This document shows positions 2,660 to 64,000 of a stretch of 64,000 nt of DNA, in pieces (position 1 is the first letter of the stretch; every line of letters starts with the position of its first letter). This DNA is from a virus. Under the pieces are notes generated by a model. That model worked only from the letters and a program-made list of their open reading frames with translations, had not been told where the DNA came from and did not search any database. The position numbers and the translations under genes are program-made. The stretch is from positions 61,374 through 125,373 of the IMG/VR virus record IMGVR_UViG_3300031521_000018; one strand, written 5' to 3'.

Positions 2660-2672
2660 TAAATAATTAAAA
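2660..2672 (+). promoter_or_regulatory. Candidate late promoter motif
   Basis: TAAATAATTAAAA, 26 nt before the tube gene. The same string precedes many virion genes here and resembles the T4 late -10 box TATAAATA. Confidence 0.45.
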
Positions 2673-8731: not shown

Positions 8732-8744
8732 TAAATAATTAAAA
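8732..8744 (+). promoter_or_regulatory. Candidate late promoter motif
   Basis: TAAATAATTAAAA, 15 nt before the membrane-protein gene at 8760. Confidence 0.45.
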
Positions 8745-12081: not shown

Positions 12082-12855
12082 ATGGCAAAACAGAACAATT
12101 ATTACATAGACAGGGAAAGATATGATGTTGAACTTAGAAAATGTATAATCAACAATCAACTCAGTACAGATTTTCTGAATATGTTCAGAAAGCATTGCTT
12201 ACATGTTGGTAAAAGGTTCTATTTAGCTACCGATGATATACGAGAGGATGCAATCTCAACAGCAACTCATGATCTATGTAAATATTGGAGAACATTTAAT
12301 ATTTATAATTGTGCGGCAATTAAATTATGTCAAAATTTTATTGTTGGAGATAAAATTGAGATCAATATTAAAAACTATGGTATAATATCTATAACAATAG
12401 GCGAAGACGCTAATTATGAAAATGATATAGTATCTTTAGGAAGAAATGAAAATATAACTCTTAAAAATATAGTTAATCTAGTAAAAGAAAAGTATCAATC
12501 ACAAGGTGTGATTAGATGTACAAATTACACAGTTCAAAAAAAGCTTTCCATAATTGACATTTTTAACAAAGAAGATATGTCTGTATTCTCAGATGTGTGT
12601 TTTAAATTAATAGGTGATGAATCAAGGTTACAGGAAACTATATTTGAAGATAAATTTCAAAAGACAGAAATCGTTGACTGCCATTGTATAAAATACACAA
12701 TGCTTGAATCATCTAATGCTTTTTCATTCCTTACATCGTTGATAACAAATTCAATGATAAATTCCTTAAATCTTTCAAACCCTAAAGAGCTTCGTGATGG
12801 CAATAGAGTACCTTTGAGTAGGCTTGTAAATGCTGAGGGTTCATATGAGGCTTGA
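12082..12855 (+). CDS. Late-transcription sigma factor, T4 gp55-like, with large insertion
   Basis: 257 residues from the ATG at 12082 (an earlier TTG in frame lies inside the portal gene). Residues 45-73 (RFYLATDDIREDAISTATHDLCKYWRTFN) and 211-231 (SNAFSFLTSLITNSMINSLN) match the two helices that are adjacent in gp55 ('REDM...FDPEKSNNAFAYFTQI..NAF'). Between them lie about 135 extra residues (74-209) rich in Ile and Cys. These lack intein end motifs and look like an in-frame domain insertion. It would direct RNA polymerase to TATAAATA-like late promoters, consistent with the motifs in this window. Confidence 0.65.
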   Translation: MAKQNNYYIDRERYDVELRKCIINNQLSTDFLNMFRKHCLHVGKRFYLATDDIREDAISTATHDLCKYWRTFNIYNCAAIKLCQNFIVGDKIEINIKNYGIISITIGEDANYENDIVSLGRNENITLKNIVNLVKEKYQSQGVIRCTNYTVQKKLSIIDIFNKEDMSVFSDVCFKLIGDESRLQETIFEDKFQKTEIVDCHCIKYTMLESSNAFSFLTSLITNSMINSLNLSNPKELRDGNRVPLSRLVNAEGSYEA

Positions 12856-14300: not shown

Positions 14301-15518
14301 ATGGTATATAATTTAGGTTTACAGTACTGCAGGTTTAAGCAAGGACAAGAGGTGACAGTACAAGAAATTAAAGATGAAATTATACGTCTTGAAAACTTGA
14401 GATTTACCAAAAAGAGTGAGGATTTATCTTTGAAAAAAATCCTCAATTCAATATATGGTGTATTTGGCTTTAGTAATTTTGTACTATATGACAAATATGT
14501 TGCCTCATCAATATCAACACAATCAGCTTATGTAATTAAATATACCAAATTTTGGTTCAATAAGTACTTTAAGGAAAGATTTCCATACATATACGATGTT
14601 CATAAACAACTTGGAATAACAAAGGTAATACCTGTGACAGGTGATATTGTTATATATGGTGATACTGATTCCATATTTGTTAATTATGGCAAAATTATTA
14701 AGAATACTGATTATAAAGGTAGCGTTCAAGATTTCATATTAAAATTAAACGAACTTGACATATATCCCGCACTTGGTCATATGCTTTCGTATTTTATCGG
14801 CTTACATAATGGTTTACAGACAAGAATATCGGGTAAGCCATGTCTTAACTTAACATTTGAGCAAATAGTTGGTAAATTCCTTATTACCGCTAAAAAAAGG
14901 TATATTAAGGAATCATTATGGGCTGATGGTAATACTTTTGGAAGATATGAAAATGTAAAAGCCGTTGGTCTCGAAATAAATCAGGCATCTGTACCAAAAT
15001 TTATACGTAATAAATTGAAAGAGATTGTTATTGACTATATTATAAAAGTAGATAATATAGATTATGCGGTAATAATAGAAAAAGTAAAGCAAGTAAAGGA
15101 AGAATTTATACATACTGACATAATAAATGTCCTACCCGCACAAAGGGTAAACAATTTGGGTAAATACATTCTTGAAAGTTCAAACAATGAAATAAAGACA
15201 ATTGCGGGTTCTCAGGCATATATGAGAGCAATAGCACAATATAATAATGAGATTTCCATGTCATCTAATGAGATAAAGCAAAAATATTCTATAATAAAAT
15301 CGGGTGATAAAGTTCAATGGTATTGGACATCAAATGCATCAACAGATGTGTTTGCCTTTCCGATAGGTGTAATACCACCTCAATTTTTGCAGAAGTTTCC
15401 TGTATCATACGATGTACAATTTATGACTAATTATTTAGCATATTTAAATAGAATATTATCAGCAATAGGATTACAAGAAATACCTTCATCTTTAGTGACT
15501 TTTAATTCGCTTTGGTAA
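14301..15518 (+). CDS. Family-B DNA polymerase, C-terminal half (motifs B and C)
   Basis: 405 residues. Motif B KKILNSIYG (45-53) and motif C YGDTDS (119-124) are followed by a thumb-like region with KKRY (fingers/thumb contact). The exonuclease domain and motif A are absent: the protein starts with its own ATG only about 45 residues before motif B. It is therefore one chain of a split polymerase, as known for gp43A/43B in some Aeromonas T4-like phages. No intein C-fragment precedes it, so the halves would have to assemble non-covalently. The other half is not in this window. Confidence 0.9.
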   Translation: MVYNLGLQYCRFKQGQEVTVQEIKDEIIRLENLRFTKKSEDLSLKKILNSIYGVFGFSNFVLYDKYVASSISTQSAYVIKYTKFWFNKYFKERFPYIYDVHKQLGITKVIPVTGDIVIYGDTDSIFVNYGKIIKNTDYKGSVQDFILKLNELDIYPALGHMLSYFIGLHNGLQTRISGKPCLNLTFEQIVGKFLITAKKRYIKESLWADGNTFGRYENVKAVGLEINQASVPKFIRNKLKEIVIDYIIKVDNIDYAVIIEKVKQVKEEFIHTDIINVLPAQRVNNLGKYILESSNNEIKTIAGSQAYMRAIAQYNNEISMSSNEIKQKYSIIKSGDKVQWYWTSNASTDVFAFPIGVIPPQFLQKFPVSYDVQFMTNYLAYLNRILSAIGLQEIPSSLVTFNSLW

Positions 15519-15616: not shown

Positions 15617-16123
15617 ATGGCTAACGAAAATATATACAGTACCGAAAGGGTAGAAGAAATATTAAAAGAATATAATAAAACGGGATACTTACCAAGGAAC
15701 AACCCATTTTATCTTAAAGATATAAGGAAAAGGAAAGGTTATTTACATTTCCAATATACCGATAAAGAAATAACAGAGCTTGCTAAATTACAAGCATCAT
15801 GTCTATACTTTGCTAATAATTATGCATATTGTATGACAGATGATGGTATTCAACAGATAAAATTAAGACCATATCAATCAAGAGTGCTTAGACAATTTGA
15901 AAGCTATAGATTTAATATATTTTTATCAAGTAGACAATCAGGTAAATGCTTGTCGGGTGATTCAATTATAACTGTTAATAACGAGAATATAACAATTAAG
16001 GATTTTTTCGAGAATATTTATTACTACAAAATAAATAAGCCTTTAGCATTTTTATTAAGAATTAAGAGATTTCTTCAAAGAAAAGTAAATAATCAAAAAT
16101 TAATTAGTACATCAACCATATGA
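15617..16123 (+). CDS. Terminase large subunit N-terminal piece with split-intein N-fragment
   Basis: 168 residues. Residues 1-110 are a terminase N-terminus: LRPYQSRVLRQFESYRFNIFLSSRQSGK ends exactly at the Walker A lysine (T4 gp17 has SRQLGKT). Cys111 then opens intein block A, CLSGDSIITV, and 58 residues of intein N-fragment run to the stop. The gene is fractured inside the ATP-binding loop, so active terminase needs protein trans-splicing with an intein C-fragment joined to the rest of the ATPase and nuclease, which is not in this window. The insertion site resembles the AceL-TerL split intein. The stop overlaps the next ATG by 4 nt. Confidence 0.88.
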   Translation: MANENIYSTERVEEILKEYNKTGYLPRNNPFYLKDIRKRKGYLHFQYTDKEITELAKLQASCLYFANNYAYCMTDDGIQQIKLRPYQSRVLRQFESYRFNIFLSSRQSGKCLSGDSIITVNNENITIKDFFENIYYYKINKPLAFLLRIKRFLQRKVNNQKLISTSTI

Positions 16124-17393: not shown

Positions 17394-17425
17394 GAGAAGC
17401 CTGATAGCAACCTGTCAGGCTTCTC
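17394..17425 (+). terminator. 11-bp hairpin terminator
   Basis: GAGAAGCCTGA pairs with TCAGGCTTCTC, followed by TGTTTT. It ends the tagged-gene run, and the late-type motif of the tape-measure gene starts 5 nt later. Confidence 0.8.
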
Positions 17426-17430
17426 TGTTT

Positions 17431-17443
17431 TAAATAATTAAAA
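17431..17443 (+). promoter_or_regulatory. Candidate late promoter motif
   Basis: TAAATAATTAAAA directly after a terminator and 9 nt before the tape-measure-like gene. Confidence 0.5.
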
Positions 17444-17452
17444 CGCTTTGCC

Positions 17453-20400
17453 ATGAATGATATAGAAATTGAAGTCCTTTATGATTACCTTAAACAATCA
17501 AATTCTTTTTTAGAGGATATTTCTGAGTATTCATTTGATATATTATCGGCATCAACTGATATCTCCAAATCAGCTAAATTCATTAAAGATGCTATAGCGG
17601 GTGTTGATGCAAAGACTCAAAATGTCGATGCAAAGACTATACAGCAGAATATACAAGCCGAAACAGCCAATACAGTTAATTCACAACAAAGCATGAATAT
17701 AGGTTCTTATACTGAGGCTGATATTGCTAAACTATCAAAGATAATAACCATATATGCAAAATCAATTAATAAATCAGTTGGAACTTTACCAAAAGACACC
17801 AAGAAACTTTCTGAATCCATAAAAGCAGTTGATGTTGGATTTATATCCGCTTTGGGTAAAATGAAAATGAAAGATGCTGAATCTATGGTAAAGAATTTCT
17901 TTAATGTTTTAGAATCATTTGTTAAACATCTTAATAAATTTAAAATTAAAAAAGAAATATCAAGCAGAGCTAAAAAATCAATTGGATATGTTAGGTCTAC
18001 TATAAATGAGGTTAGTAATGTAATGAAAGGTATAAATTTTGAAGGGCTTGATGGATTTGGTCATTCTCTTTTAAAAGTTGCTAGATCAATAACAGGATTT
18101 GTTGGTGCATTGGCTATTGGTGGTGCACTATCGATAATAGCAACTCCAGGATTATTGTTCTTTAAATTAGCACTTAGAGTTTTACAACCCGAATTTAAAT
18201 CTTTAGCAAAAGATAATAAAAAACTTAAAGATGGTGCACAATCCGTAATGTATATTGGTGCGGGGATACTTGCTATGTCACTTGCTATAGCTGCATCAGC
18301 ATATGCTATTTCAAAATTCTCAATTACAGATATGGTAGTTGGTATGGTAACTGTTATAGGTGTTACTTATATTGTAGCCAAATTTTATAAATACATGGGT
18401 CTGAGTGATAAATCAGACCTCAAGAATGGTATTAAAAATATGGTACTTATGTCATTATCATTATTAATGATGACAGGTACTTTTTGGGTTATATCCAAGT
18501 TGCCAATAGACTATAAGCAGGTTGGTCTAACAGTTCTTTTGCTTGCGGGTACAGCAGCTTTATTTGCATTGATAGGAATGAAAACCGTATCTGATAAGGT
18601 TAAAGAAGGTGCTTTAGCTATAGGATTTGTATCATTGTCATTGTTGCTGTTTGGATTTTCAGTCTGTATAACCGCTAAAATGTTGGCGGGTCAGACTAAT
18701 GCTATTTGGCAAATACCTTTGATGTTATTCGCTGTAACAGCACCATTTGTAGCTGCAGGATTTTTACTTCCTAAAATAGCTATGGGTGCTTTAGCCTTTG
18801 CACTAATTGGAATATCTTTGTGGATAATGAAAAAGCCACTTACAGAGATAGGAAATATGATAGCTAAAAATGGTGGTTTGATTTGGAAGATACCAACATT
18901 TATTACAGCTTTAGGGTTAGTTTATGCGGGTGCGGGATTGTTAATAGCACCGATATCTCTAGGTGCTTTAGCAGTTGGATTATTAGCGGGTTCTCTTTAT
19001 GTATTAGCTAAAGCATTGAAACCAATATCTGAACTTAACTTGGAAAGGGAGCAAATGAGCATATTTGCCGATAGTTTAGGAATAGTAGTTAAAGGTGTTT
19101 CTGATGCATTTTCTAATTTGAGTATTGGCTCATTCTTGAAAATAACAATGATGGGTAACAAAGTGGGAGAAGTTGTTGGTGTATTTGCAAGGTCTTTATC
19201 ATATTGGAAAGCTACAACAACTGATTGGAAGCCTGAGGATGCCAAGACATTAGCTGATACCATATTGGGTGTAACAACGGCTGTGGCGTTGGGTACATCT
19301 CCTGAATATATAAAGAAAATGCATGGAATAGATGTTTCACAATGGCAAATACTTAAGGGTATAGCATTTACAATGAGTTTGGGTAGTAATCTTAAAAAAT
19401 TAGCGGATGGCGTTCTTGTTTGGAAAAATATGAAGTTAAGTCCTGATGATGCAAGAAATATCTCAGATAATATCAATACAATTTTGTCTGTTATACCCGC
19501 AACTATAGCAAGGATAGGGAACGATGATATTACTAAACCCGCAACAGGGCTTCTAGGATTTATAACAGGTGGTGCTTGGACAACAACAAATACAGAAAGA
19601 GGTATTGATTACGTTAAAGGTATTGGTAAAGCAATGACAAAACTTGCTGATGGTGTTAAAATGTGGAAAGAAATGAAATTAACACCAAATGATGCTAAAC
19701 TTATTTCGGACAATGTAAATACTGTACTTTCTATTATACCATCAACAATTTCAAAAATAGGAAATGATAATACTATAAAATCTAGCGGTCTTTTTGGGAT
19801 TTGGAAAACAACAGATACAGAAAGAGGTATTGATTATGTTAAAGGCATAGGTAGGTCACTTTATGATTTGGGTGAGGGTGTAAAAACATGGAAAAGCATG
19901 AAATTAACACCAACAGAAACAAAGCTAATTTCTGATAACATAAATGCGGTACTTTCGATTATACCTTCAACAATAGCCAAGATAGGTGATGATACAAAGA
20001 CATCAAAGCCAGGACTATTTGGTATGTGGAAAACAACGGATACTGAACGTGGTATTAAATATGTTAATGGTCTTGGTGCTCCTTTAAAAGATTTATCAAT
20101 CGCCGTATTAAATTGGAAACAGGCTAAACTAACACCCGCTGATATAAAACTTATTGAGAAAAATATTACTGAACTTATAACAACTATACCATCGGCTTTT
20201 GCAGCAGTTGGTAGGGCTAAAAATAATGACAAGGGATTTTGGGGGATGTTTAAATCGGATGCTGAAAAAGGTATACGTGTTGTAAATAACATGATGTCAC
20301 CTTTAAAGAGTTTATCGGATGTGGTTTCTAGTTTTTCAGGTACTACAGATATAAAGGATAGAGGAAAGCAAATTGGTGAGGGTGTAAAACAATTATTGGT

Positions 20401-20874: not shown

Positions 20875-21864
20875 CTATATAGAAAAATCAGAAAATTTTC
20901 TAATAAATTGTATATTTAAATTAATTTCCCTTGATATTTCTCTCTTCAAACAATCACGATTGTATGCAGAAATAGCACCTTTGTAATAATTACTAAATTC
21001 TGATTTTTCTTTCCATTTTTTAATCATTTCATTTCTTTCTTTCTCAGATAAATATTGTGGTTTATGTGTCCATATTCCATCATATTCTATAAACAAATCC
21101 AAAGACTTGATATAAAAATCACAAGCAAATAAATATTTAGTTTCTTTACTATAATATCTTTTATCTCTATATTGACGAACAATATCTGAATATCCAAACA
21201 ATTCTATTAGATTATAATATATTTCATTCTCCTCTTTAGATTTTTCATAAGAACCATTTTTCTTTTTGGTTTCGTGTATTTTTGATATAGTACTTGATAG
21301 ATATGACATATTTCCTACACCATATCTTTCCAAACATGTTTTCTCATATTTTCCTTTGAATTCGTCAGTTTGTTGATACCATTCTACACCGTAAATTTTA
21401 AGATTTGTTTGCTTTGATTTTTCTACAAAATCTTCTATAAGCATATGATTTTCGACACCATATTTTTTCAAGCATGTTTCTTTATATTTTTCTTTATATT
21501 CATCAGTTTTGGAATAATTTTCGACACCATATTTTTCTAAACAAGTCAATTCTGCTTTTATATAATTTTTCTTACAATTGTCTGACCATTTTTCAGATGA
21601 TTGAAATTTTTTAGCACATATTTTTGAGCAGCAAACCTGATAACAGTATTTGTGTCTGTCAAAATTCGATTGCTTTCCACAAATTTCACAATATTGTATA
21701 TTAAAATTACTATTAATTATATGCCACATTCTTTGTTTTGGAGTTATGTGTTTGCAACTATCATCTAGAAATGAAGTTAATTCACATATTTTCCTAAATT
21801 CACATATTTTAATACTTGATTTGTATGTGTTGTTATTATACCAATTTATTAAATCATTGTACAT
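20875..21864 (-). CDS. Homing endonuclease, Vsr/EDxHD-type with zinc finger and repeats
   Basis: 329 residues. An N-terminal Cys4-type finger (CEICGKQSNFDRHKYCYQVCCSKIC, about 58-83) is followed by four repeats of about 25-30 residues of the form TCLEKYGVENxSKTDEYKEKYK (DNA-binding modules), then a C-terminal nuclease domain with FIEYDGIWTHKPQ, the E-x-D..H signature of the Vsr-like EDxHD homing family. It is the only minus-strand gene for tens of kilobases and sits 8 nt beyond the tape-measure stop, typical of a free-standing mobile gene. This endonuclease family is known to accompany fractured split-intein genes. Confidence 0.8.
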   Translation of the reverse strand: MYNDLINWYNNNTYKSSIKICEFRKICELTSFLDDSCKHITPKQRMWHIINSNFNIQYCEICGKQSNFDRHKYCYQVCCSKICAKKFQSSEKWSDNCKKNYIKAELTCLEKYGVENYSKTDEYKEKYKETCLKKYGVENHMLIEDFVEKSKQTNLKIYGVEWYQQTDEFKGKYEKTCLERYGVGNMSYLSSTISKIHETKKKNGSYEKSKEENEIYYNLIELFGYSDIVRQYRDKRYYSKETKYLFACDFYIKSLDLFIEYDGIWTHKPQYLSEKERNEMIKKWKEKSEFSNYYKGAISAYNRDCLKREISREINLNIQFIRKFSDFSI

Positions 21865-21928
21865 GTTTTTTAATTTTATTTATTTTAATCTATACGTAAT
21901 ACCAATTTACTAAATAAAGTAAAAGGAC

Positions 21929-22564: not shown

Positions 22565-22581
22565 TTGGCACGACTTTTGTA
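22565..22581 (+). promoter_or_regulatory. Sigma-54-like promoter candidate, block 1
   Basis: TTGGCACGACTTTTGTA fits the sigma-54 consensus TGGCAC-N5-TTGC with TTGT in place of TTGC. Two TTGTTAA words 10 nt apart lie about 45-60 nt upstream. About 70 nt around it is duplicated at 25328-25392. Confidence 0.4.
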
Positions 22582-37127: not shown

Positions 37128-37201
37128 GCTCCCTTAGCTCAGTTGGTCAGAGCAAAACACTCATAATGTTGAGGTCATAGGTTCAAGTCCTGTAGGGAGC
37201 A
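37128..37201 (+). tRNA. tRNA with CAU anticodon (elongator Met or Ile2)
   Basis: Full cloverleaf: acceptor GCTCCCT/AGGGAGC, D-arm GCTC...GAGC, anticodon loop CTCATAA with a 4-5 bp stem, T-arm ATAGG-TTCAAGT-CCTGT, discriminator A. The G1-C72 pair argues against initiator tRNA. CCA is not encoded. Confidence 0.93.
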
Positions 37202-37329
37202 CAGACTGTTTATTAGATACGACTATAGAGAGAATATTGCATCTCTCTAATCTATGAACGAAAGGATGGTTAGTCCCATCCTGAGAGATACAGGATAAAG
37301 AGTTATTCTGATATAAAAAGTGAAAAATC

Positions 37330-37683
37330 GGGGGTGCTTGGTTTTGATTGCGGTTTAGGGTGGTATAAGTTCAATGGAGATTATCAGTTCTCCTTTTAAA
37401 AAGGTAAACCAAATAACAGGCAAAAATACAATCAAATCATTGGGTAACAAGGTTATTGCAATGATATCTCCAAGAGTAGTAGCATTTGCTGCTTAAGGAA
37501 GCCTAATTTAGTTTTTTAAAGTTTGCCGATGTCATAAATCGGATGGTGGACTGCACTGTTTCCAAACAGTACCCAAATTCTTATAAGATGCTGAAAGGTG
37601 GTAAGATTAACCTCATGCACTAAGTTGTAAAAAGACTTGTATTAACCAATCGTAAGACGAGTGTTCGACTCACTCCACCTCCA
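37330..37683 (+). ncRNA. ssrA: Phage-encoded tmRNA (ssrA)
   Basis: The 5' end GGGGGTGCTTGGTTTTGAT and the 3' end GAGTG-TTCGACT-CACTC-CACCTCC-A form the tRNA-like domain (7-bp acceptor with one G-U pair, 5-bp T-stem). An internal frame from 37419 to 37496 encodes a tag of 25 residues beginning GKNTIKS and ending VVAFAA before TAA. The Gly resume codon is as in Bacteroides tmRNA. The tag is longer than the usual 8-15. It would rescue stalled ribosomes during infection. Confidence 0.9.
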
Positions 37684-37691
37684 CTTTAAGT

Positions 37692-37726
37692 AAATTGGCT
37701 GTAATCTTTGAGATTACAGCCAATTT
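37692..37726 (+). terminator. 16-bp hairpin terminator after tmRNA
   Basis: AAATTGGCTGTAATCT pairs perfectly with AGATTACAGCCAATTT over a 3-nt loop, then TGTATTTTG. Confidence 0.88.
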
Positions 37727-37774
37727 TGTATTTTGCAACTATATTTTGGATTGACACAATTATAAGATATCGAA

Positions 37775-37789
37775 TATAAATAATTAAAA
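37775..37789 (+). promoter_or_regulatory. Candidate late promoter with exact TATAAATA
   Basis: TATAAATAATTAAAA, containing the T4 late -10 consensus TATAAATA, 12 nt before the next gene and after the tmRNA terminator. Confidence 0.5.
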
Positions 37790-37801
37790 TCTATCTAGCT
37801 T

Positions 37802-38527
37802 ATGTTTAAAAATATATTCCAATTGTATAAACTGTTGACTGAAAATGAGGTCTTCATAGCTAATTATACGTTCCCTAATGAAAATACCATAATAGATAGA
37901 CTTTCAAATAAATACACCAAGTCAGAAACCTTTGTTTTTTCAGATTTTGTAAGAATCGAGGATATGAAGTATAAAGCTAATGAAATCACAGTGTCGTTAT
38001 TACTTAAATATAATGTTTTGATAATACTTGAGGATGGTGGTGTGATAATAGAACCTGTTAATGATATATTGACTATAATTGAAAGTGGAAAACATATTGT
38101 ATCAAATATCAATCTGCTTTCTAAAGAGAATGTTAGAAAACTTATAAATAATACATTCTTTAAATCAAAACAAAATCAAAACCTTGCCGATGTAGAATAT
38201 TTTGTGAACATAAAAGATATTTGCCTTGATTGTGTAAAACTCAGCAACATAAATCATTCAGAAATATTTATAATATGGAAAAAATTAATAGACGAGAAGA
38301 TAAAGCTTGTTAAGCAGCTTGGAATAACTACATCGTTTGATGTATACAATCCATATGAAAATAAAACATATAAAATGTCATTTAATCCTAATACTTATAA
38401 TGCTTTCCTTAATGTAGATCAAATATTAGGCAATATAAACAAGATAGATTATTGGCTAGCTAGAATAAATTATACATCATTTTTGGGCGATAAGCATCAA
38501 TTTTTGAAGCATACATTAGTAAATTAA
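37802..38527 (+). CDS. Hypothetical protein, 241 aa, probably late
   Basis: Not recognised. Begins MFKNIFQLYKLLTENEVFIANYTF; the LTENEVFIA stretch also occurs near residue 40 of the 233-aa protein at 44271. A strong late-type motif suggests a virion protein. Confidence 0.6.
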   Translation: MFKNIFQLYKLLTENEVFIANYTFPNENTIIDRLSNKYTKSETFVFSDFVRIEDMKYKANEITVSLLLKYNVLIILEDGGVIIEPVNDILTIIESGKHIVSNINLLSKENVRKLINNTFFKSKQNQNLADVEYFVNIKDICLDCVKLSNINHSEIFIIWKKLIDEKIKLVKQLGITTSFDVYNPYENKTYKMSFNPNTYNAFLNVDQILGNINKIDYWLARINYTSFLGDKHQFLKHTLVN

Positions 38528-38532
38528 CCTAT

Positions 38533-38751
38533 ATGGATACTCACCAATGTTGTATGTGTGGAAGACCCGCTAGTATTATTTTAAAAAGAAATAAAAAATG
38601 GTATTGTGAGCTATGCATTGAGAAAGCTAGAAACAGAAATAATAAACCAATTATAAAAAAGAAAGAACAGAGCCGTAATGATCAATGTAATTGTGGTTCG
38701 GGGAAAAAATACAAATATTGTTGCTTATTAATTAAAAATAAAATCATTTAA
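38533..38751 (+). CDS. Small two-zinc-site protein with SEC-C motif
   Basis: 72 residues. An N-terminal CCMCGRPAS...WYCELC knuckle and a C-terminal NDQCNCGSGKKYKYCC, the SEC-C zinc motif of SecA tails. In SecA this contacts SecB and ribosomes. Role in the phage unknown. Starts 5 nt after the previous gene. Confidence 0.75.
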   Translation: MDTHQCCMCGRPASIILKRNKKWYCELCIEKARNRNNKPIIKKKEQSRNDQCNCGSGKKYKYCCLLIKNKII

Positions 38752-39482: not shown

Positions 39483-39524
39483 GGTGCTTGTGCTATTTTT
39501 TGCTTGGTTTATAACACAAGCACC
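39483..39524 (+). terminator. 10-bp hairpin, probable terminator
   Basis: GGTGCTTGTG pairs with CACAAGCACC across a 22-nt T-rich loop. An AAATAAATAAATAAAATTAATT stretch resembling the late motif follows, then the gene at 39554. Confidence 0.5.
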
Positions 39525-39553
39525 AAAATAAATAAATAAAATTAATTACCATT

Positions 39554-39925
39554 ATGGAACTAACAAGATTTCAACCGACCAACCAAGTTTCTGACATACC
39601 TGATATGTTGAATGCTGCATTTCAAATCTTAGAGGATACGTTAAATCCTATTCTTCAAATTATAAATACTACCACCAAAACAATAAATTTATCAGGTCTA
39701 CAAGGTACTTTACCTAATAAATCAATAATAGCTGACAATATAATACTCACAGGAACTAGTGGTAATGTATTGGTGGTTTCACCTGATGGTGTAACCATCA
39801 AATCATCTATTGACAAAGATGGTGATTTCACACCTGCAAATATACAAACTGTTTCAGGTACTACGGATACAGAGAAATTAACATCTTTGATATTAGCACT
39901 TAAAACATTGGGATTAATACAATAA
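39554..39925 (+). CDS. Head-fibre-like structural protein
   Basis: 123 residues. A short helix is followed by Gly/Thr-rich beta repeats (NLSGLQGTLPNKSIIADNIILTGTSGN) and a terminal LTSLILALKTLGLIQ, the usual ending of head-fibre proteins in several Bacillota and Bacteroidota phages. Late-type leader. Confidence 0.45.
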   Translation: MELTRFQPTNQVSDIPDMLNAAFQILEDTLNPILQIINTTTKTINLSGLQGTLPNKSIIADNIILTGTSGNVLVVSPDGVTIKSSIDKDGDFTPANIQTVSGTTDTEKLTSLILALKTLGLIQ

Positions 39926-39955
39926 TCAATAAAATTTATATCGACATCTAACCTA

Positions 39956-40519
39956 ATGGATGCCGATAATGTATTGAAAAGTATGAAAAAACTGCAGATA
40001 TTCAAACCTGATTTAGAAGGATTCCTACTCAACCATGTGGAACTCAATCCATCTAAATCTCAAATAGAATCGGGAGAATATGACAAAGCTGCAATTATTA
40101 TTCAGGGGATGAATATAACCATTGAAAATCCAAAAGGTTCTACACGTTCGGGTGTTGATGATAATGGTAAAAAATGGTCAACGGAAATGAAAAATCATTA
40201 TGGGTACTTTGATAATACACATGACAGAATAGGAGAAGATATTGATGTATTTATAGGTGATAACACCAATAGTACTATGGTATATGTTGTAGATCAGATA
40301 GACCCTTTAACAGGTAAATTTGATGAAAGTAAAGTAATGCTTGGATATAACAGCCATCAAGATGCTAAAGAATCATATTTGAATAATTATGATAAAGATT
40401 GGAAAGGTTTTCAAAATATAACACCCGTACATATAGATAAATTCAAAGAATGGTTGTATGATGGCGGAAGGCAACTTATACCATTTCATAAATATCTCGA
40501 TACCCCAAAACCAATATAA
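39956..40519 (+). CDS. Phage inorganic-pyrophosphatase-like (InPase) domain protein
   Basis: 187 residues. ITIENPKGSTRSGVDDNGKKWSTEMKNHYGYFDNTHDRIGEDIDVFIGDN, then MVYVVDQIDPLTGKFDESKVMLGYNS and KDWKGFQNITPVHIDKFKEWL match the InPase domain of phage polyvalent proteins, there part of a large multidomain chain, here stand-alone. A second ATG at 39983 gives MKKLQIFKPD, close to the MKKLKIFE tag; the true start may be there. Confidence 0.75.
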   Translation: MDADNVLKSMKKLQIFKPDLEGFLLNHVELNPSKSQIESGEYDKAAIIIQGMNITIENPKGSTRSGVDDNGKKWSTEMKNHYGYFDNTHDRIGEDIDVFIGDNTNSTMVYVVDQIDPLTGKFDESKVMLGYNSHQDAKESYLNNYDKDWKGFQNITPVHIDKFKEWLYDGGRQLIPFHKYLDTPKPI

Positions 40520-40556
40520 ATAAGATTAACGTTGTTGTGCTTCTATATAAAGATGT

Positions 40557-41321
40557 ATGGTAACATTAAATTTGGTTCACGGCTGTGATATAGATTCCTG
40601 TGATCTATACAAAACAGGGTTCTGCTATGTAAAAACCAAATTCTCCAATAAAAATTTCCTAAAAAACGACTTTCTAAAGCCTAAATATTATCCCGAATAT
40701 TGGGATAAATTACCAAAAAGACCCGATATTTATATATGTTCAATTATGGGTGATATGTTAAGTAGTACTATAACTGACCTAAATCTTATAGACATACTTG
40801 AACATATAGAAAGAAGACCACACGATGTATTTTTCTTGCAATCAAAGAACCCAATAAGGTATTTTAAGTTTTTGAAAGAATGTTGGATAAAGGAAATACC
40901 CAAGAACATTTATTTTGGAACTTCTGTTGAAAATAATAATTATAACTGCAGAATAAAAGATTTATCCAAACTTAAATTTTTAAATAAATCAATTCATCTT
41001 TGGTTAGAAATCGAACCTATCATGGGTGATTGTTCCAAACTTGATCTTTCACTTATGGAATATATAACAGTTTCAACTATAGGGTTTGATCAAACTTATA
41101 GATCAACTATTGATAACCATATATTGAGCATAGGTGAGCTATATAAAGATGAATGGATAGAATCATTATATGAAAACCAAACGGTAAATAAAAATATACT
41201 TAGATTTTATAGCAATGTACTTGAACTGACACATTCATATAAAATATTGAAACATCCAAATTTTGATGTATATAAAATTTTGTATAAATTGGATAATAAA
41301 CAAGTTAATTCTTTATTTTAA
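40557..41321 (+). CDS. DUF5131 (Gp37/Gp68) family protein, radical-SAM-like
   Basis: 254 residues. LVHGCDIDSC..YKTGFCYVKTKF at the N-terminus, LKPKYYPEYW, IYICSIMGDMLS (family: FVNSMSDLFH), DVFFLQSKNPIRYFKFL, NIYFGTSVEN and LWLEIEPIMGDC (family: LS.EPLLG) follow DUF5131. Members are common in phages with unknown substrate. The family has a Cys cluster typical of Fe-S binding; here the spacing is unusual. Confidence 0.75.
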   Translation: MVTLNLVHGCDIDSCDLYKTGFCYVKTKFSNKNFLKNDFLKPKYYPEYWDKLPKRPDIYICSIMGDMLSSTITDLNLIDILEHIERRPHDVFFLQSKNPIRYFKFLKECWIKEIPKNIYFGTSVENNNYNCRIKDLSKLKFLNKSIHLWLEIEPIMGDCSKLDLSLMEYITVSTIGFDQTYRSTIDNHILSIGELYKDEWIESLYENQTVNKNILRFYSNVLELTHSYKILKHPNFDVYKILYKLDNKQVNSLF

Positions 41322-42606: not shown

Positions 42607-42641
42607 GATTCCGTGAAGATATAAGCCATCTTCACGGAATC
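42607..42641 (+). terminator. 14-bp hairpin terminator
   Basis: GATTCCGTGAAGAT pairs perfectly with ATCTTCACGGAATC over a 7-nt loop, followed by TTCGTTTT, which runs into the next late-type motif. Confidence 0.85.
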
Positions 42642-42648
42642 TTCGTTT

Positions 42649-42660
42649 TAAATAATTAAA
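42649..42660 (+). promoter_or_regulatory. Candidate late promoter motif
   Basis: TAAATAATTAAA directly after a terminator and 8 nt before the 2H phosphoesterase gene. Confidence 0.45.
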
Positions 42661-42668
42661 CAAATCAT

Positions 42669-43208
42669 ATGCAACCATTACAAATGATACAAGATTATAA
42701 ATGCAGAATAAATTTGACAGACTATGATTTTGCCTGTCTTATGGTGGATGTTTATCCTATACTTTTAATTACAAAATTACAAAATAAAATAGATTTGGAT
42801 GATTTGGATGATAAAGGTATAGAAACAAATCAACACATAACAGTAGTATACGGAATTGATACTTATGTTGGACTTTCTAGGATGTTGACTATGATACCTA
42901 AAAATATTGGCACTTTAAAATTAGGAAAGATAAGTGTTTTCGAAAATGAAAAATATGATGTATTAAAAGTGTCAATTATACCATCTAATGAATTGTTGAA
43001 ATTAAGATCAGATATAGTCAATAAATTACATGTTACATTAACATACCCAAATTTTGAACCTCATATAACGCTAGCATATCTTAAAAAAGGAACTGCGGCA
43101 AAATATTTACTTAAATTTGGAAATATAGATTTAAGTAATGAGGTTGTTGTATTTGATAAATATAATTATTCAGGCGGTAATTTAAATGAAACATTTATAA
43201 AGTTATAA
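42669..43208 (+). CDS. 2H phosphoesterase (LigT/Acb1-like)
   Basis: 179 residues. The two HxT motifs are QHITVVYG (about 57-64) and EPHITLAYL (about 136-144), with beta strands between. The 2H family cleaves 2'-5' or cyclic nucleotide bonds; T4 Acb1 (about 150 aa) uses the same motifs to destroy CBASS signals. Whether this protein acts on CBASS signals, RNA 2',3'-cyclic ends or something else cannot be told from sequence. The stop overlaps the next ATG by 1 nt. Confidence 0.7.
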   Translation: MQPLQMIQDYKCRINLTDYDFACLMVDVYPILLITKLQNKIDLDDLDDKGIETNQHITVVYGIDTYVGLSRMLTMIPKNIGTLKLGKISVFENEKYDVLKVSIIPSNELLKLRSDIVNKLHVTLTYPNFEPHITLAYLKKGTAAKYLLKFGNIDLSNEVVVFDKYNYSGGNLNETFIKL

Positions 43209-57634: not shown

Positions 57635-57647
57635 TAAATAATTAAAA
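57635..57647 (+). promoter_or_regulatory. Candidate late promoter motif
   Basis: TAAATAATTAAAA, 5 nt before the gene at 57653. Confidence 0.4.
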
Positions 57648-59370: not shown

Positions 59371-59609
59371 AAAAATCTAACACACTGAATAAACCTGTTA
59401 ATGAAAGTGTAAACATTTTCAAGGATTTCATAGATGGGATAAAATCGGATTTCAAGAATATAGGTACTGAATTTAAATCTGATTTAATAGCTATGTTTGA
59501 TGAAACAAAGGAAACAGGTAAGCAAATTCAAAAGGATGCACAGGAAATCATAGATGATGCATGCCTTAAATTGGAGGAACTTAAAAAAGGTTATCAGGAT
59601 AAATTATAA
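59367..59609 (+). CDS. Small helical protein, MKKSNTLNKPVNES leader
   Basis: 80 residues. Amphipathic helices (IFKDFIDGIKSDFKNIGTEFKSDL, then EETKETGKQIQKDAQEIIDDA). The MKK...NES leader recalls the tag family but lacks IFE. Apolipoprotein-like or coiled coil; not recognised. Confidence 0.55.
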   Translation: MKKSNTLNKPVNESVNIFKDFIDGIKSDFKNIGTEFKSDLIAMFDETKETGKQIQKDAQEIIDDACLKLEELKKGYQDKL

Positions 59610-59619
59610 ATAATTAAAA
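59605..59619 (+). promoter_or_regulatory. Candidate late promoter with exact TATAAATA
   Basis: TATAAATAATTAAAA, 2 nt before the start codon region of the tagged gene at 59622. Spacing is short for a promoter, so it may instead be part of the translation leader. Confidence 0.35.
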
Positions 59620-60107: not shown

Positions 60108-62849
60108 TTAATAGTCTATTTTATATTTATGAACAGTTATATAATTTGAGAAAAGTTCTGTCTTGTTATCACCTTTATTATTATACAATGTAACCTGTAA
60201 GGAATATTTTCCCGATTTGAAAAATGTATAACAGAAAAATAAATAATTATCAAGCTCAACAATAACTGTTCCATTTTCATCTAGTAATTTCCAATTTGCA
60301 TTTGATTTACCAACAAATTGTGACCTCTTCAAGTTGAAAAATATGGTATCCGAAACGTGAATGGCTACATTATCAGTGAATATTTTAGTCATTCCCTTAG
60401 CAAATGGTAACAAATCTTTATCAGGGTTGAAATTTTGACCATATGTTTGGAATGTCTGAGAGATTATATCATTGAATTGTATGTTATCAAAGAACATAAA
60501 CTTATGATTTGCATAAGCCATGAAATCATCATCAACAAATTTTATCTTTCTAAAATCCTTTAATGTTTTAGGTGCATAAGTATCAAAAAGTGCTATGTAT
60601 TCAGGTGTTTGATTTATAATTTCACTTGTATTAACAAAGGCGGTCAATGAGATGGATTTTGGTGAAACATTAATTATTGAATGTTTGGTTAATACAGCCA
60701 TTTCATTATTAAACTTATACAGTTTCATTTGTATGTTAAAAAGTCCACTATTTGGTAAAGTAAGTGTAGTTTCTAGTAAATCATCAAGTTTACCAATCTT
60801 GGAATCAACTAATAAACCTGTTTTAACAGAAACGGCTGACCATTCTATTTGATAATACTTGAATTTATCTACATTATTGAAAAATATTGAATATGTGGCG
60901 TTTTCTGTTTTTAATTGCTCAAATGTAACGTCAACATCCTGAATCTGTACACCAAAGGTTAAATTTTTAACATTTATAACAGCACCTACTTTGCTAATAG
61001 GTGTATCAAATGTAAAACCTGATAAATCGGAAAGTAGAACGTTTATTATGTTATTATCCTCTACCCCATTTATTGAAAAGCGAATATTATCCTGTGAGAT
61101 GGATTCAGAAATTAAGTTCCAATCATCATACCAAAAATTTATGTCATATTTGTTAAAGTAAGTTATCTCACCAATAATGTCTATAATAGATGAAATACCA
61201 CCGATTTCACGGTCTTTAATCCAATTCTTAAGACCAAACAATTTTATTATAATTTCCTCGTTTGAAAACATGAAACTATCCACTGTTTCGGGCAAACCAT
61301 CTTGTGTATATTCACCATTAGTATGATTTATTGGATAGTACAACCCGAAAAATGAGGTCTTTTTAAGTTGGCTATTATAACGTATAGTTTCGTCAAGTCT
61401 TCCCTGTTCATATAGTTTAATATCTTCTGCTATATATTTTCCCGTCTTTATATCAACCCAATATTCCTTAAGTGTTAAATCGGGGTAATCAAATAGGTTA
61501 AGTATGTTTATAAGACCTTTATAAGCTGAAAAGTAAGGCTTGATATTGTGCATTTCAAGAATAAATTCCTTTTTCTTTTCATTAAGTAATATATGATTAG
61601 TAAGTTCCTCTTTGATGTCACTGTTACGGAATATATATTCCTCATTTGCTGTGATATATTCCCCGAAATCAGCAAGCTTTGCCGTTAACCTTTCATCCTC
61701 ACCAACTACCTCTATATATACTGAGATTTCAGCTATTATCCTCCCAATTAAAGCACTATAGACAAGCAATTTGTCTATAACTGTTTTTTCTGTAGATGAT
61801 TTAACGGCAAAATCTACTCTAAATGGCTTACGTATGTTTCCGCTACCTTCAACTGTTGTAATAATATAAACATTGTTTTCATCCCCATTATAAGCTGTTA
61901 CAGCACCATTAGTACCTATAAAGTCTGAGCCAATTTGCGTACCATCACTATAATGTTCAACAGCCAAATTTTCTTGCAACCAGACTTGATTTCCATGCTT
62001 TACACAATGATATACATCACCATCAATAATTACACTTTCTACAAATACACCATCCTCTTTAATCAATCTACAAGACATACCATCATGTTTACCTGTTGGC
62101 GTACTAAATGAAAAGGAATTACCATTACTAATTACAGCTCCATATGCACCCATATCAGTAAATGATAAGCCACACACTCTACCCATTGCATTTGATGCTG
62201 TCTGTGAACCCGAAACCACCTGAACACCTGATGGATAGAGATTCATCCCTGATGAATTATTCAGGGATGAATTATAACCTGCAGAACCAACATACGTACT
62301 AGGTAATATGTTCCAACCCTCTTTAGATGCTAAAGCTTTTGCCACTTTATTATTACTAAAACTTGTTGTAATACTACCATCATAATTATATCCATTTTCT
62401 GCTAGGAATGTTACCAAAGTTTCCCAATCTGATCTTGATGGAACACGCCATCCTGTAGGTGCAAGCTTTCTAGTGTTTGTTATAGCATACCAATTGTACA
62501 ACCTACCATTTGTTATTTTTTTAATAGATTGTGGTGGTAGAATTTCCACATTAAAAACTTTCTTATCTATAAATTCTACCTTGGGGAATTCATCATGTGG
62601 GTTTCCAACTGTAAAAATTTGATAATCCATGGAATTCATCAAACTAACGGTTAAATCACCGAATGATTTAGGCTGTATAAATTCACCACCTGTTTCCTCA
62701 AGTATGAATAAGGTTTCATTCTCAATCAAATCGGTTGAAACCTCAGGTAGATACATTATACCTTGTAATATATCATATTCCTTATTATAGGAAAGTTCTA
62801 ATTTATTACCATTTTTATTAAATATCGATAAAGCATTTAAATCACCCAT
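60108..62849 (-). CDS. Tail/baseplate or fibre protein with Fibrobacter-type paralogous domain
   Basis: 913 residues from the ATG at 62849 behind a TAAATAATAAAAATTTGAAA leader (an upstream TTG is less likely). Residues about 140-275 contain NGRLYNWYAITNTRKLAPTGWRVPSRSDWETL, the C-terminal half of the Fib_succ_major domain, ending CRLIKE. The domain's usual N-terminal half (IDGDVYHCVKHGNQVWLQENLAVEHYSDGTQI) follows it, so the order is permuted. Later parts are beta-rich, possibly Ig-like. Probably a host-binding virion protein. Confidence 0.65.
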   Translation of the reverse strand: MGDLNALSIFNKNGNKLELSYNKEYDILQGIMYLPEVSTDLIENETLFILEETGGEFIQPKSFGDLTVSLMNSMDYQIFTVGNPHDEFPKVEFIDKKVFNVEILPPQSIKKITNGRLYNWYAITNTRKLAPTGWRVPSRSDWETLVTFLAENGYNYDGSITTSFSNNKVAKALASKEGWNILPSTYVGSAGYNSSLNNSSGMNLYPSGVQVVSGSQTASNAMGRVCGLSFTDMGAYGAVISNGNSFSFSTPTGKHDGMSCRLIKEDGVFVESVIIDGDVYHCVKHGNQVWLQENLAVEHYSDGTQIGSDFIGTNGAVTAYNGDENNVYIITTVEGSGNIRKPFRVDFAVKSSTEKTVIDKLLVYSALIGRIIAEISVYIEVVGEDERLTAKLADFGEYITANEEYIFRNSDIKEELTNHILLNEKKKEFILEMHNIKPYFSAYKGLINILNLFDYPDLTLKEYWVDIKTGKYIAEDIKLYEQGRLDETIRYNSQLKKTSFFGLYYPINHTNGEYTQDGLPETVDSFMFSNEEIIIKLFGLKNWIKDREIGGISSIIDIIGEITYFNKYDINFWYDDWNLISESISQDNIRFSINGVEDNNIINVLLSDLSGFTFDTPISKVGAVINVKNLTFGVQIQDVDVTFEQLKTENATYSIFFNNVDKFKYYQIEWSAVSVKTGLLVDSKIGKLDDLLETTLTLPNSGLFNIQMKLYKFNNEMAVLTKHSIINVSPKSISLTAFVNTSEIINQTPEYIALFDTYAPKTLKDFRKIKFVDDDFMAYANHKFMFFDNIQFNDIISQTFQTYGQNFNPDKDLLPFAKGMTKIFTDNVAIHVSDTIFFNLKRSQFVGKSNANWKLLDENGTVIVELDNYLFFCYTFFKSGKYSLQVTLYNNKGDNKTELFSNYITVHKYKIDY

Positions 62850-62952: not shown

Positions 62953-63306
62953 TCATGGATAATCCAAACACACAACTCTACCTTTGTATATTCCAAAATT
63001 TGTCGATTTTAAATCAAAGTCCTGTACATTTTTAAAATATTCAACTTCATTATCAGTCAATTCTCTACCAAGAGGTTTGCAATATTTTTGAACCTGAATT
63101 AGTCCAAAAATTGAGCAAAATAATGATGGTGCAACTTTATTATACAGTCTACCATTATCATAATTCTTGAACACTTTACAAAAATTTCTTTCAGACCAAT
63201 TGGCATGGCAGCCATTTAGAAAATTTAGATGGCTATATGTGAAATTGGGGAATTTGATAACAAATTCCCCAATTTTTAATACTAATCTAGTAGCACCCCT
63301 TTCCAT
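62953..63306 (-). CDS. Miniature protein-kinase-fold protein
   Basis: 117 residues. GATRLVLKIGEFVIKFPN (lysine strand), NWSERNFCKVF (Glu helix), FGLIQVQKYCKPL (hinge) and DLKSTNFGIYKGRVVCLDYP (D-x-K-x-x-N then a DFG-like LDY) follow the kinase/aminoglycoside-phosphotransferase order, in a much smaller chain than the usual 250. The catalytic HRD strand is compressed. Small kinase-like phage proteins of this kind exist without known substrates. Confidence 0.5.
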   Translation of the reverse strand: MERGATRLVLKIGEFVIKFPNFTYSHLNFLNGCHANWSERNFCKVFKNYDNGRLYNKVAPSLFCSIFGLIQVQKYCKPLGRELTDNEVEYFKNVQDFDLKSTNFGIYKGRVVCLDYP

Positions 63307-63317
63307 TTATTACTTAT

Positions 63318-64000
63318 TTAATCTAATGTTATATTATTAAAGCTATTTGTGTAACATTGGAATCTACCAAGCAAAGGTATAGCAAGTTCTCTAGCCTGTG
63401 GATGGGCTGCGGGTGCACATCTTAATTTAAAGAAGTGCCTCCAATCTGTCATGAAACCTGTCATAATAAGTTCAGTTTTCAGAGAGTTTGGAAGTACGGC
63501 ACGTGCCTGTTGTGGTTTCCATCCTGCAGCAATCTGAAAATTATATCCGTGTTCGGAATTTGACATATCATAAACGAAACTACAAAGTCCTCTTTTTTCT
63601 AAAGGCATGGATTCATCATGACCAAGTTCATAAACATCTTTATTGTTTATATTTGCCATATCGACCAAACCCTGTACAATTTCTTCTTTACCTTGTAACC
63701 AAACAGGATAAATAAAAGTTATACAATTACCAAATTTTTCTTTGATGTAATTACAAAAACGTGTAGACTCCTGAGTAAACGAGAATACCCGATGCCTTAC
63801 AAATTCATGTGAAACACCCCTATCACAAATAAATCTTACTGTATATCTCTTTTCATGAAATTTTGTAGGTTTACTCATGTATTTCTTCATGGTATTAACT
63901 TTATTATTGTCAGTTATTACCCTGTAATTAGTTGTAATATATTTCCAATTTTTCACCTTGGAATATTTGTTAAGGAAGAAAAATAAAATAATAAGTAATG
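63318..64000 (-). CDS. thyX: Flavin-dependent thymidylate synthase ThyX (partial)
   Basis: The ThyX signature RHRxxSxxxxSxR is present as RHRVFSFTQESTR; also VRFICDRGVSHEFVRHR, NFQIAAGWKPQQARAVLP and MTGFMTDWRHFFKLR. It makes dTMP from dUMP using FAD, complementing the dUTPase at 34.6 kb. The first visible start is GTG at 63956, but the frame stays open to the window edge and reads NKYSKVKNWKYITTNYRV, which fits the upstream part of ThyX, so the N-terminus lies beyond the window. Confidence 0.95.
   Translation of the reverse strand, partial: LLIILFFFLNKYSKVKNWKYITTNYRVITDNNKVNTMKKYMSKPTKFHEKRYTVRFICDRGVSHEFVRHRVFSFTQESTRFCNYIKEKFGNCITFIYPVWLQGKEEIVQGLVDMANINNKDVYELGHDESMPLEKRGLCSFVYDMSNSEHGYNFQIAAGWKPQQARAVLPNSLKTELIMTGFMTDWRHFFKLRCAPAAHPQARELAIPLLGRFQCYTNSFNNITLD

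Follow-up and report, generated by a model that had tools for sequence, protein, structure and literature searches.

Late transcription in phage T4 begins at promoters that lack a -35 element and consist of a box of 8 bp lying roughly one turn upstream of the start (PMC2988020). The box, TATAAATA, spans positions -13 to -6 (PMC2988020, PMC7892883, PMC1524935) and is recognised by the phage sigma gp55, while the polymerase is recruited by gp33 together with gp45, the sliding clamp (PMC2988020); T99 of gp55 contacts promoter base A(-8) (PMC7892883). Variant T4-type boxes have been given for Aeromonas phage Aeh1 (CTAAATA) and cyanophage S-PM2 (NATAAATA) (PMC1524935, PMC2984593). For T4-like phages of Bacteroidota, we found no description of a late promoter in the open-access papers searched.

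The window analysed here is a stretch of 64,000 nucleotides (61374-125373) from a virus record of 125,373 bases (parent contig G000), in which a short box recurs before genes. Very probably this box serves the phage as the -10-type element of its late promoters, which would be of T4 type but with a consensus that has diverged. In common with T4 it has the TAAATA core, the lack of a -35 element, occurrence on both strands, a position before virion genes and a phage-encoded gp55-type sigma factor. Unlike T4, positions -13 and -12 are not conserved, an A at +6 and an A-tract at +10 to +12 are added, the gp55-type sigma carries an insert of ~135 residues, and the predicted leaders are very short. 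The Aeh1 and S-PM2 boxes resemble the present one in their TAAATA core, in their drift at -13/-12 and in having been predicted from upstream motifs, and the gp55 of Aeh1 has also diverged; they differ from it in that no downstream A-tract has been reported and in their hosts, which are gammaproteobacteria and cyanobacteria.

Source contig and relatives

In the parent record there are genes for a T4-type portal (PF07230, E=2e-46), for gp4-like head-closure and gp2-like DNA end-protector proteins and for a UvsX-like recombinase, together with DnaB-like and Dda-like helicases and a family B DNA polymerase; the contig is probably incomplete. By portal, the best named relative is the distant Flavobacterium phage MaF61 (26% identity), which makes a host among the Bacteroidota probable. 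Closer relatives are the uncultured G001 (167,485 bases; portal 73% identical) and G002 (41,241 bases). No named phage matched the first 20 kb in megablast, and a wider portal search gained few additional relatives. G001 was used to judge the conservation of each box.

The family B DNA polymerase is split between window 14301-15518 and G000 37164-38642(-), two separate genes that each match one half of the MaF61 polymerase, and no intein was seen in them. The terminase large subunit is split over three dispersed genes (window 15617-16123; G000 39500-40711(-) and 18012-18848(-)), in an arrangement identical in G001. Its first gene has at its end the Walker A motif (...SSRQSGK) and then an intein-like N-part (CLSGDSIITV...); the second opens with an intein-like C-part ending SHN|S and goes on with SITSG; and the nuclease part forms the third gene. 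As read from these motifs, the element within the terminase Walker A sequence is a split intein.

Sequence and distribution of the box

Scored over the whole 125-kb contig, the box has the consensus TAAATAANNAAAA, sharper than first described. Exact copies number 19 on the two strands together, and 18 of them lie upstream of a called gene on its coding strand, with the box starting 15-39 nt before the ATG; at exact sites 2-26 nt separate the end of the box from the ATG. Within 80-nt upstream regions, these 18 copies compare with 0.84 expected and a maximum of 5 in 300 dinucleotide shuffles, so the motif enrichment over shuffled sequence that the earlier note had put forward as a check is present; exact TAAATAATTAAAA alone occurs 6 times against 0.13 expected. 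Anagrams of the same composition occur 0-3 times each, except AAATAATNNAAAA (8), which is largely the box itself shifted by one base. In G001, all 20 of the genome-wide box matches are upstream of genes, against 1.25 expected.

Enrichment disappears under looser definitions. With two mismatches allowed the window total is at chance (56 vs 49.9), as is the count of TATAAATA (27 vs 24.3), and both were dropped as measures. One-mismatch sites are no more frequent than the anagram controls and were for that reason counted only where conserved in the relative; individual sites of this kind were dropped as evidence.

All eleven boxes that the earlier note had listed in the window exist. Eight are exact, seven on the plus strand and one before the minus-strand tail gene, and the remaining three (3392, 10353, 42649), each with one mismatch, recur at the ortholog. 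The note had overlooked three further exact boxes (1320, 16086, 39529) and one-mismatch candidates at 21911, 21886(-) and 63320(-). Two boxes had also been said to contain the T4 late box, and this is correct by extension of the box at 37775 and 59605; as a consensus, TATAAATA was the wrong choice and is not enriched. The sites and associated features are collected in Table 1.

Table 1. Boxes, terminator hairpins and the sigma factor gene in the window (distances from box start to ATG)
Feature	Sequence	Position	Strand	Gene context	State in G001
Exact box	TAAATAATAAAAA	1320..1332	+	33 nt before ATG 1353	one-mismatch box at ortholog
Exact box	TAAATAATTAAAA	2660..2672	+	39 nt before ATG 2699	exact
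Box, one mismatch	TAAATAATATAAA	3392..3404	+	27 nt before ATG 3419	exact at ortholog
Exact box		8732..8744	+	28 nt before ATG 8760	one-mismatch box
Exact box	TAAATAATAAAAA	9523..9535	+	28 nt before ATG 9551	not seen at ortholog
Box, one mismatch	TAAATAATATAAA	10353..10365	+	21 nt before portal ATG 10374	identical sequence at portal
Sigma factor gene, gp55-type late, 257 aa		12082..12855	+	starts 7 nt after portal stop codon	
Exact box	TAAATAATCAAAA	16086..16098	+	34 nt before ATG 16120	gene without ortholog
Terminator hairpin		17394..17425	+	T-run enters box 17431; -24.0 kcal/mol, z about -7	
Exact box		17431..17443	+	22 nt before ATG 17453 (1137-aa protein)	exact
Weak box, one mismatch, uncertain	AAAATAAATAAAA	21874..21886	-	before homing-endonuclease-like gene 20875-21864	
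Box, one mismatch, uncertain	TAAATAAAGTAAA	21911..21923	+	18 nt before ATG 21929 (gp4-like head closure)	not conserved
Exact box after TA	TATAAATA at 37775	37777..37789	+	25 nt before ATG 37802	exact
Exact box	TAAATAAATAAAA	39529..39541	+	25 nt before ATG 39554	exact
Terminator hairpin		42607..42641	+	T-run enters box 42649; -21.2 kcal/mol, z about -7	
Box, one mismatch	TAAATAATTAAAC	42649..42661	+	20 nt before ATG 42669	one-mismatch box, equal distance
Exact box		57635..57647	+	18 nt before ATG 57653	
Exact box after TA	TATAAATA at 59605	59607..59619	+	15 nt before ATG 59622	
Exact box	TAAATAATAAAAA	62857..62869	-	20 nt before ATG 62849, tail-fibre-like gene 60108-62849	exact
Weak box, one mismatch, uncertain	TAAATAAGTAATA	63308..63320	-	before gene 62953-63306	not conserved

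The TAAATA core is present and conserved; the TA of T4 at -13/-12 is not, and those positions are nearly free. Downstream, the box adds an A at +6 and an A-tract at +10 to +12, counted from the first T of TAAATA. Since possession of the box was what had selected the 75 aligned sites, we added an unselected test, in which the columns after any TAAATA located 13-40 nt before a start were compared with those after TAAATA elsewhere. A was found at +6 in 88-89% of these words versus 23-28% elsewhere and at +10 to +12 in 72-93% versus 31-37%, both far above the A fraction of leaders in general (0.447), and the columns further downstream were near background. No -35 element was seen in the 75 sites from the two genomes, where positions -40 to -1 before the box all carry <0.2 bit.

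Conservation and gene context

Conservation was assessed in 87 reciprocal best protein pairs between the parent contig and G001, with a box defined as having at most one mismatch. The ortholog is boxed for 23 of the 30 boxed genes versus 6 of the 57 unboxed genes (odds ratio 28, p=8e-10). Distances to the ATG often differ within ortholog pairs (25/17, 25/18, 28/22 and 33/40 nt), whereas spacing within the box does not change, which argues for a role in transcription more than for a leader that binds ribosomes.

The box is found on both strands and, rather than being equally frequent before early genes, precedes 7 of 11 virion genes versus 0 of 17 replication/metabolism genes (at most one mismatch, p=0.0003), where functions were assigned by homology alone. 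Since exact boxes by themselves give just 2 of 11 versus 0 of 17, this gene-class contrast is supportive, not decisive. The neck and gp2-like genes have no box of their own and lie downstream of a boxed gene in the same operon, the gp2-like end protector at 43208 being placed behind boxed gene 42669. The gene at 2699 is the ortholog of a MaF61 gene annotated as baseplate wedge. The earlier description of the boxed genes as virion genes is not borne out for every one of them: 42669 is a 2H phosphoesterase, and genes 37802, 57653 and 59622 have no assigned function. The phosphoesterase (42669-43208) has a match to the anti-CBASS protein Acb1 family. A tRNA-Met gene and then a complete tmRNA gene with its tag peptide occupy 37128-37684, just upstream of boxed gene 37802.

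Boxed genes have longer upstream gaps (medians of 65 and 78 nt versus 12 and 8 nt) and are more often preceded by a strand switch. The box had been noted to follow terminators immediately, and boxes 17431 and 42649 indeed begin within the T-run of a strong terminator; a hairpin also precedes the tail-gene box. A divergent boxed pair with 52 nt between the ATGs (G000 27290/27343) is conserved in G001. Together, the overlap with terminators and the 52-nt divergent pair leave little room for -35 elements.

A second promoter-like element, highly conserved and located ~50 nt before small genes, has the form TTGACATA...TTTGGCACGAyTTTTG. It is found at window 22566-22579 (before ORF 22622), at G000 10718(-), at six sites in G001 and in ~12 related viral contigs, and its TGGCACG-N4-TTG resembles a sigma-54 -24/-12 site.

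In MaF61 the corresponding upstream box is GATAAATA (15 vs 1.3 expected), placed mostly 26-48 nt before starts, and between divergent genes it occurs several times as part of the palindrome GATAAATATTTATC. MaF61 is like the window phage in having the same insert-bearing gp55-type sigma and a partly shared set of boxed genes, including tail-fibre-like and neck genes, and is unlike it in keeping G at -13 and A at -12 and in lacking the downstream A-tract. The MaF61 homologs of gene 17453 and of the tail-fibre-like gene 60108-62849 both carry GATAAATA; overall, 6 of 8 MaF61 homologs with GATAAATA are boxed here, which is a trend only (p=0.11). Upstream regions of MaF61 (loci L018-L021) are also strongly enriched in TGCAACA, with TGCAACAA found 12 times versus 0.43.

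Phages MA9V-1 and PTm1, which have a short gp55 relative, show a different pattern: TAAATA is not among their enriched upstream words, and TATATTTG dominates. Support for TAAATA as the partner of this sigma family is thus limited to the present clade and MaF61. Counts of TATATTTG upstream of genes in MA9V-1 and PTm1 (loci L079-L082) are 12 vs 0.5 and 19 vs 1.2; it matches the Bacteroidota housekeeping -7 box TAnnTTTG, and we take it to be a host-type word.

A gp55-type sigma factor

Profile comparisons identify the previously unannotated ORF at 12082-12855 as a relative of the T4 late sigma factor gp55. A profile built from nine known gp55 proteins scored highest, though below significance, with one ortholog group that has members in this contig, G001/G002 and MaF61. 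Relatives of the MaF61 member in other phages, several of them phages of Bacteroidota, are short proteins that match PHROG 234, 'late sigma transcription factor' (LR756500, 7e-13; L047, 4e-8; MA9V-1, 4e-6; PTm1, 0.02). A profile of those four proteins in turn retrieved the window ORF (4e-17) and its counterparts in G001 (6e-18) and MaF61 (4e-16), and nothing else in the proteomes scored better than 0.02. In PDB searches with the four-protein profile and with one adding the window protein, T4 gp55 (7d7c/7d7d) was the sole credible match (E=7e-4 and 3e-3). Direct PHROG searches with the window protein gave no gp55 match, which was reached only through the intermediates.

In the window protein, sigma regions 2.1-2.2 correspond to approximately residues 8-73 and regions 2.3-2.4 to approximately residues 210-232. 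The insert of ~135 residues (about 75-212; 12304-12717) lies between regions 2.2 and 2.3; it is common to the window protein, G001 and MaF61, is absent from the other relatives, and nothing recognisably related to it occurs elsewhere in the three proteomes. Derivation of the insert from an intein was considered and dropped, since neither an intein-type ending nor an N-terminal Cys is seen in MaF61. An AlphaFold model from three sequences reached a mean pLDDT of 48.6, too low for a fold search.

The position of T4 T99 is invariant in all seven gp55 relatives. T4 Y97, which stacks on A(-12), is replaced by F in the window protein and G001 and is Y in MaF61; position -12 is not conserved in the boxes of the former and is conserved in those of the latter, a correlation across two lineages that is only a hint. 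Among the other T4 pocket residues, H95 is F in the window protein and N13 is not kept. The C-terminus, at the position of the clamp-binding peptide, is a short acidic aromatic tail (AEGSYEA) with no clear similarity to T4.

Discussion

The reading of the box as a T4-like late promoter, proposed in the earlier note, has gained support from a box conserved at varying distances from the ATG, from the lack of a -35 element, from its absence before replication and metabolism genes and from the presence of a gp55-type sigma. In the mechanism we propose, the gp55-like sigma with the host RNA polymerase core would read the TAAATA core at -11 to -6. As TAAATA corresponds to -11 to -6 of the T4 promoter, transcription would start within the A-tract, ~11 nt downstream of the first T of the core, and predicted leaders would be about 4-28 nt long, with a median of about 14 for exact sites. 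A sliding clamp or other phage factor would replace -35 contacts, as in T4, and such recruitment would allow the box to abut terminators and divergent promoters. T4 has gp45 and gp33, and neither was found here, the dedicated searches (PHROG 223, T4 gp45 and PF02916, Pfam DNA_PPF) having covered gp45. Given a gp44-type clamp loader in G001 (E=1e-17), the clamp has more probably diverged than been lost. With the portal gene boxed and the sigma gene directly behind it, read-through may amplify the late sigma.

The probability that the eye settled by chance on short AT-rich words, in a genome of 30% GC, is close to negligible. Chance would account for the two-mismatch and TATAAATA counts, but not for the excess of exact boxes over dinucleotide-matched upstream sequence and over anagrams, nor for the repetition of this enrichment in G001 or the conservation of the box before orthologs. 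The box might instead be an A-rich, Shine-Dalgarno-free translation leader that aids the ribosomes of an AT-rich host and has no role in transcription. Members of the Bacteroidota make little use of Shine-Dalgarno pairing, leaders are A-rich generally, and the box lies at 15-39 nt from ATGs, all of which would suit a leader. However, the distance to the ATG is variable and shifts between orthologs at constant internal spacing, and most genes, including replication genes that must also be translated, lack the box. It also favours genes with long upstream gaps and strand switches, and +6 and +10 to +12 are far richer in A than the leader background. We therefore regard a leader as improbable, and the earlier suggestion that the box doubles as one is disfavoured by the same shifts in distance and by the unboxed replication genes.

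There is similarly little probability that the box is a promoter read by a host sigma or by a different phage transcription factor rather than by the gp55-like protein. Recognition by the latter is proposed from sequence comparison, and MA9V-1 and PTm1 combine a short gp55 relative with the TATATTTG word, both of which would be compatible with another reader. Against this, there is no -35-type signal, the box is unlike the Bacteroidota housekeeping promoter (TTTG / TAnnTTTG), TAAATA is the core common to T4-type late boxes, and the residue that in T4 contacts A(-8) is invariant in the seven relatives. A late promoter read by the gp55-type sigma is thus the explanation that we prefer. A more specific scenario seems to us unlikely, namely that the gp55 of this clade gained its insert beside the promoter-reading pocket, lost reading of -12/-13, with the change from Y to F at T4 Y97, and gained contacts to the downstream A-tract, so that late mRNAs would be almost leaderless, as would suit ribosomes not relying on Shine-Dalgarno pairing; MaF61, which has the insert and not the A-tract, argues against this scenario.

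A promoter of this kind would bring into the T4 late transcription system a phage branch with named relatives that infect Bacteroidota, in which both promoters and translation starts are unusual. The diverged sigma/promoter pairs of the two lineages would offer material on how specificity changes in a minimal sigma factor, and an exact TAAATAANNAAAA at 15-40 nt before an ATG may serve to mark late genes when uncultured phages of this clade are annotated.
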